Positions 2,080 through 30,299 of a stretch of DNA of 64,000 nucleotides are shown piece by piece; positions within the stretch are counted from its first letter, which is position 1, and every line of letters starts with the position of its first letter. The position numbers and the translations under genes are program-made. This stretch comes from Hexactinellida sp. DTS-2022 (lineage: Eukaryota; Porifera; Hexactinellida): NCBI GenBank assembly GCA_028753945.1, contig JAPNXP010000010.1, positions 5,521,042 through 5,585,041 of the forward strand, read 5' to 3'. The notes under the pieces were generated by a model. It ran no database searches, was not told where the DNA came from, and saw only the letters and a program-made list of their open reading frames with translations.

Positions 2080-2521
2080 GGAAATCTAATTTGATGGATG
2101 CTATCAGTTTTGTGTTAGGAGAGAAAACTTCCAATCTAAGAGTTAAACAGCTGAAGGTTAGCAAATTGTAACAATTATTGTAATCATACAGTCAACTCCG
2201 CTTAATAGAGCCACCGGTTAATAGATTTCACTGCTTAATCGAGTGAAAATTTTGCAGGATTTATAGGACGGAATTACATTTTGGCTTAAAATTTTCCGGT
2301 TAATAGATTTCTCCGCTTAATCGGGTCAAAGCAACCTGGTCCCGAGGTGACTCTATTAAGCCGGAGTTGAGTGTATATAACTTATTATTTATCAGTTTGC
2401 CATACACTCCTCTATAGGATTTAATACACGGAGCTCAAGTGTATAAACCTGTTGCTAACAGAGCTCATGTCACAGCTCTGTACAAAGAAGATGATGGGAG
2501 CGTTCTCGAGTTTACAAGAAC
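2080..2521 (+). CDS. SMC1A: SMC1 exons 2-3
   Basis: Exon 2 is 2080-2156 and exon 3 is 2418-2521. Exon 2 begins in the last glycine codon of Walker A, split by the intron, so a preceding exon is required. Exon 3 encodes [16 protein letters not shown]. The donor after 2521 (GTAAGT) opens an intron of about 11.1 kb that runs to 13672. Confidence 0.93.

Positions 2522-30299: not shown

Follow-up and report, generated by a model that had tools for sequence, protein, structure and literature searches.

The SMC1 gene of this hexactinellid sponge hosts six guests in three of its introns (introns 1, 3 and 12), five of them antisense to the host and one sense. The nest is real and ordinary, the arrangement itself being already known, and it is documented here by the order and phases of the exons, the open reading frames of SMC1 and its guests and a comparison of densities. 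With a probability of roughly 90%, this is an ordinary case of genes nested in the introns of a host in a compact animal genome, with a single SMC1 transcript spliced in cis and guests that are independent. The locus offers a clean, checkable case of how such a genome packs conserved genes into introns, with all six guests in one cohesin gene.

The SMC1 host gene

The window, that is, the whole stretch of 64,000 nucleotides analysed (G000:C2:5521042-5585041, 34% GC), belongs to a genome of 112 Mb in 18 contigs. An additional 9 kb upstream of the window (L009) was included, and negative window positions are equal to the L009 position minus 9000. The gene model was built with a spliced protein-to-genome aligner using a human SMC1A sequence, approximate in part, as the guide. 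This alignment yielded a plus-strand gene of 38 exons encoding 1225 aa without internal stops, which spans 32.9 kb from -2642 to 30299 and contains 37 introns, 36 of the GT-AG and one of the GC-AG type. Exon 1 (-2642..-2534, corresponding to L009 6358-6466 and G000:C2:5518399-5518507) reads 37 residues, beginning with the Met and ending within Walker A, the motif being divided between exons 1 and 2. Exon 2 (2080-2156) and exon 3 (2418-2521) are identical to the human guide in 23 of 25 and 18 of 34 residues, respectively. The spliced alignment places exons 4-12 at 13672-16438 (exon 4 at 13672-13792, exon 12 at 16322-16438) and exons 13-38 at 19969-30299 (exon 13 at 19969-20183), with the stop codon ending at 30299. 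A preliminary description of this DNA had the gene run from 2080 to 30299; its end was correct, while the start is moved upstream to exon 1.

The guide score of 2685 compares with 135 for the reverse-complemented locus, 114-124 for shuffled guides (n = 3) and 183 for the reversed guide, and masking of the guest blocks left the alignment the same (score 2685, 38 exons). With 38 ordered, stop-free exons and controls of 114-183 against 2685, SMC1 is a real host gene, as had been claimed. Identity to the human guide amounts to 614 of 1223 residues; exons 11, 19, 23 and 29 are short segments of the coiled coil, each weakly supported when taken alone. The spliced protein and human SMC1A form one continuous alignment (residues 1-1223 to 1-1224, E = 0), and among SMC proteins it is closest to SMC1, scoring 1228 bits with SMC1A and 215 bits with the best SMC4 chain. 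Exons 35-36 are taken to encode the signature and Walker B regions. Since Walker A is spread over exons 1-2, a working head would need exons from before and after introns 3 and 12.

The three longest introns, intron 1 (4613 nt), intron 3 (11,150 nt) and intron 12 (3530 nt), are the three that contain guests. The remaining 34 measure 66-1414 nt, and the median is 269 nt. No ORF of at least 150 aa was found in introns 13-37, leaving these 25 introns guest-free. The length of intron 3 (11.2 kb against the median of 269 nt) and the dispersed repeats of several introns (including 3, 12 and 13) would be compatible with an assembly artefact that placed blocks of unrelated genes within the SMC1 locus. 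This is hardly credible, as the window contains no N and lies on a contig of 6.3 Mb, the guests sit in three separate introns, each flanked by correctly ordered and phase-compatible exons, and the pattern recurs in SMC4 on a different contig.

The exon order would imply a single transcript across the guests solely on the condition that splicing occurs in cis. SMC1 could instead be trans-spliced from two or more transcripts, so that no polymerase would cross the guests, and trans-splicing of leaders has been published for a glass sponge (PMC10282587) and for ctenophores (PMC8527503). However, the cases described in the available parts of these papers concern short 5' leaders, while the 37 modelled SMC1 junctions are ordinary cis sites, in order and on one strand, and nothing was seen in them to set introns 3 or 12 apart. 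We therefore consider trans-splicing of SMC1 extremely improbable.

Six guests in introns 1, 3 and 12

For all six guests, the coding region (coding parts only) lies wholly between adjacent SMC1 exons. The first guest is a minus-strand NHL-repeat ORF without introns (-2278..-971, L009 6722-8029; Pfam NHL, E 1e-29), located in the part of intron 1 that precedes the window, which is why it was overlooked earlier. It is a complete ORF of 435 open codons; counted from the first Met, the product has about 423 aa. Its family has at least 150 matches genome-wide (150 scored of 2268 candidates), many of which are open frames of about 400-440 aa. The in-window part of intron 1 (1..2079, host on the plus strand) holds RAB28, encoded on the minus strand by two exons at 1648-1533 and 1233-639. 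It is open from Met to stop and matches Rab-28 (PDB, E 7e-52) over residues 18-192 of 236. Its position in intron 1, previously given as probable, was thus confirmed for a complete gene in two exons.

Intron 3 contains three single-exon guests, in agreement with the earlier placement of an LRRK1-like kinase of 2108 aa, PPIL3 and a 504-aa orphan between exons 3 and 4. The LRRK1-like gene (3006..9332, minus strand, 2108 aa) shows the Pfam architecture ANK-LRR-ROC-COR-kinase and is open from Met to stop. Its best solved relative is LRRK1 (E 1e-152 over residues 270-1595 of 2108), and it is nearer LRRK1 (513 bits) than LRRK2 (387 bits) by a comparison of scores, not by a tree, with a fitting Pfam domain order. 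It is one of 11 COR-A loci in the genome. The cyclophilin PPIL3 (9590..10075, minus strand, 161 aa) is likewise open from Met to stop and matches PPIL3 with E 5e-84 over residues 1-160. These two genes have the same orientation and are 257 bp apart (9333-9589), as in an operon resolved by trans-splicing, for which the pair is a candidate.

The orphan (11835..13349, plus strand, 504 aa) is the only sense guest. It has no Pfam match, a search of the genome returned only the orphan itself, and its fold predicted without an alignment reached a pLDDT of 32. A divergent NHL protein was also considered and rejected, given the BLASTP value of E 0.18 with the NHL guest and the lack of a Pfam match. Intron 12 harbours a xylosyltransferase (XYLT1-like; 17086..19170, minus strand, 694 aa, single exon) with the Pfam domains Branch and Xylo_C, open from Met to stop and matching XYLT1 with E 8e-130 over residues 84-636 of 694. 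This gene had already been assigned to the interval between exons 12 and 13, correctly.

The orphan frame has the best codon score among its six frames, and the XYLT (narrowly), PPIL3, NHL and RAB28 exon 2 frames are also top of six. In two guest-free stretches of SMC1 introns, no frame reached a codon score as high as those of the guests. Combined, SMC1, the LRRK1-like gene, PPIL3, XYLT and RAB28 can be regarded as separate complete genes, and NHL and the orphan as complete ORFs only. Neither a tRNA nor an Rfam match at gathering score was found in the 64-kb window that would add a small RNA guest. The preliminary description had counted at least four guests, three to four of them antisense and one sense. 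The minimum and the sense guest are borne out; the total is larger, six with the NHL ORF, and the antisense guests number five.

Gene density and other SMC genes in the same genome

The genome background was estimated from 16 random 10-kb pieces (160 kb of 112 Mb) by counting ORFs, which include long exons of multi-exon genes. The SMC1 introns total 29.3 kb and contain 6 ORFs of at least 150 aa (2.05 per 10 kb), compared with 38 in 160 kb (2.38 per 10 kb) in the sample. At thresholds of 200 and 300 aa, the corresponding densities per 10 kb are 1.71 against 1.75 and 1.37 against 1.06, respectively. Base-shuffled copies of the 16 pieces gave no ORF of at least 150 aa in 160 kb. ORFs of at least 150 aa cover 43% of the SMC1 introns, 52% of the SMC4 introns and 24% of the sample, the SMC1 value exceeding that of the sample because one guest, the LRRK1-like gene, accounts for 2108 codons. 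The number of guests in SMC1 is thus about as the genome sample predicts, and SMC1 is one host among others.

The part of the window from 31 to 64 kb contains 8 ORFs of at least 150 aa (2.42 per 10 kb). Three similar intronless ORFs of 142-154 aa on the minus strand (37436-37900, 42210-42665 and 44634-45062) share a charged stretch like SRERRRNKKVFYSADERSRN and perhaps form a small local family. Low-complexity Q/Y/G-rich ORFs on the minus strand (47653-48294, 52840-53169 and 54383-54700; region 47653-54700) flank a plus-strand gene with ANTH and I/LWEQ domains (about 49093-52182), possibly another nested gene. In addition, a single-exon ORF of 832 aa (59729-62227, minus strand) belongs to the MutS family, with MutS domains III and V, and is presumably MSH5-like.

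SMC4 (G000:C7:803257-818297) is likewise intron-rich and scores 2250 with the SMC4 guide; the score of 515 with SMC3 led us to reject the reading of this gene as SMC3. It hosts four guests on both strands, in introns of 2.3, 1.4 and 4.0 kb: DMAP1 (minus strand, two ORFs), GPN1 (plus strand, E 2e-116 to GPN1) and two LRR ORFs (minus and plus strand). The latter two form an inverted pair of very similar membrane-type ORFs of 540 and 539 aa within one intron (G000:C7:812344-815908, L029 2344-5908), the difference being mainly at the C-terminus. The SMC4 introns total 11.5 kb, with 5 ORFs of at least 150 aa (4.36 per 10 kb), a density based on an exon list from which four weak rows (802080-802200, 802300-802335, 807152-807231 and 820103-820140) were dropped and in which two exon ends (806050 and 810733) were set from an earlier alignment. 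Both loci are therefore intron-rich SMC hosts with guests on both strands, but their guest sets differ. The arrangement had initially been viewed as unusual, which does not agree with densities of 2.05 against 2.38 per 10 kb or with a second host carrying four guests. Because the same genome nests genes elsewhere and the packing of SMC1 is near ordinary gene density, the nest represents a known arrangement and no special device.

The geometry, with five antisense guests and one sense guest in one gene, would permit a regulatory function, with polymerase passing through SMC1 to repress or time the guests, or with transcription of the guests adjusting the supply of cohesin. To our knowledge, a Rab, a kinase, a cyclophilin, a glycosyltransferase, an NHL protein and an orphan share no common pathway, which counts against such a device, as do the guest density near the genome background and the different guest set of SMC4. 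Transcriptional interference by nested genes has already been published, according to the part of PMC3192792 consulted; for SMC1, we judge a regulatory device to be very unlikely. Nothing in the analysis points to the transcriptional interference or co-regulation that the preliminary description suggested.

Single-exon genes are common in this genome, as exemplified by SMC2, SMC3 (E = 0 to SMC3) and 8 of the 11 COR-A loci, which have an open frame over 1500 aa. The single-exon condensin gene SMC2 (L009 1910-5557, plus strand, before the window; E 1e-281 to SMC2) is situated about 800 bp upstream of SMC1 in a head-to-tail orientation. One may ask whether guests lock their hosts, such that a lineage losing introns by cDNA replacement keeps the introns of guest-bearing genes: a host holding the sole copy of a guest would resist replacement because the guest would be lost with it. 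If true, intron-rich survivors (SMC1 and SMC4) should be guest-bearing and guest-free sisters (SMC2 and SMC3) single-exon. The four SMC genes examined fit this idea, although the fit is partly trivial because an intronless gene cannot host, and the absence of guests from 25 introns of SMC1 (13-37) argues against locking at the level of single introns. We consider locking an unlikely explanation. A related idea, sense-antisense overlap that retains introns, has been put forward for Giardia in the accessible portion of PMC6545626.

Expression and origin of the guests, and published parallels

For the ordinary nest favoured here, the gene content of the introns of intron-rich genes would be about as dense as elsewhere in the genome. 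The SMC1 pre-mRNA of ~33 kb would most likely be one transcript, spliced in cis to a mRNA of 38 exons, and the guests would leave together with introns 1, 3 and 12. The guests most likely form transcription units of their own, each with its own promoter. Five guests are antisense, so that the host transcript carries none of their own splice and poly(A) signals in readable form. The sense guest would have to be either skipped by host splicing or ended by its own 3' signal. No AATAAA is present between the orphan stop and SMC1 exon 4 (the next is at +384), and TATAAA occurs at +58 and +150. The missing AATAAA says little because 30 of the 39 3' flanks sampled also lack this motif within 250 nt. 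Poly(A) signals were likewise rejected as a mark of insulation, with AATAAA in 9 of 39 flanks only.

In the genome, XYLT and the orphan match nothing besides themselves, the next match of PPIL3 by score is 49% identical, and other matches of RAB28, which kept one intron, are at most 41% identical. At least four SMC1 guests are therefore without a near-identical second copy. The possibility of recent retrocopies was rejected for XYLT, PPIL3, RAB28 and the orphan, as no close parent is found in the genome; for none of the four was an intronless copy with an intron-bearing parent, as in a processed retrogene, observed. The intronless guests may have arrived as cDNA copies, or else following intron loss.

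A search of the literature on SMC1, nested genes and introns retrieved no paper on this locus, and papers or annotations beyond the searched literature may exist; SMC1 is not mentioned in the main text of PMC10282587, as far as available. According to the same source, an annotation setting that forbids nesting lowers the counts of nested genes in other genomes, and here such a setting is likely to split SMC1 or lose guests.

Nested genes of the ctenophore Hormiphora californensis number 2357 and occupy 1654 hosts, many of them running parallel to their host, and trans-spliced leaders have also been described (PMC8527503, available part). As in SMC1, complete genes reside in single introns, several per host (four in one, according to a figure legend) and on both strands. 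In contrast, genes nested within nested genes occur there, and none was seen in SMC1. The 34-base part of the Hormiphora spliced leader that was available gave no matches here when up to 3 mismatches were allowed, and a ctenophore origin was rejected. Nor did a mitochondrial COX1 have a match in the assembly. The glass sponge Aphrocallistes vastus, as described in the accessible text of PMC10282587, has 19,578 genes, 2432 nested genes (12.4%), 12,409 single-exon transcripts and a spliced leader. Its genome of 80 Mb differs in size from the 112 Mb here, but is likewise small, with many single-exon genes, and single-exon genes such as glassin are nested in a host. Compactness, long single-exon genes and nesting, taken together, would be in keeping with a glass sponge for the present genome as well. 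About 10% nested exonic bases seems normal over several animal phyla, according to the same text.
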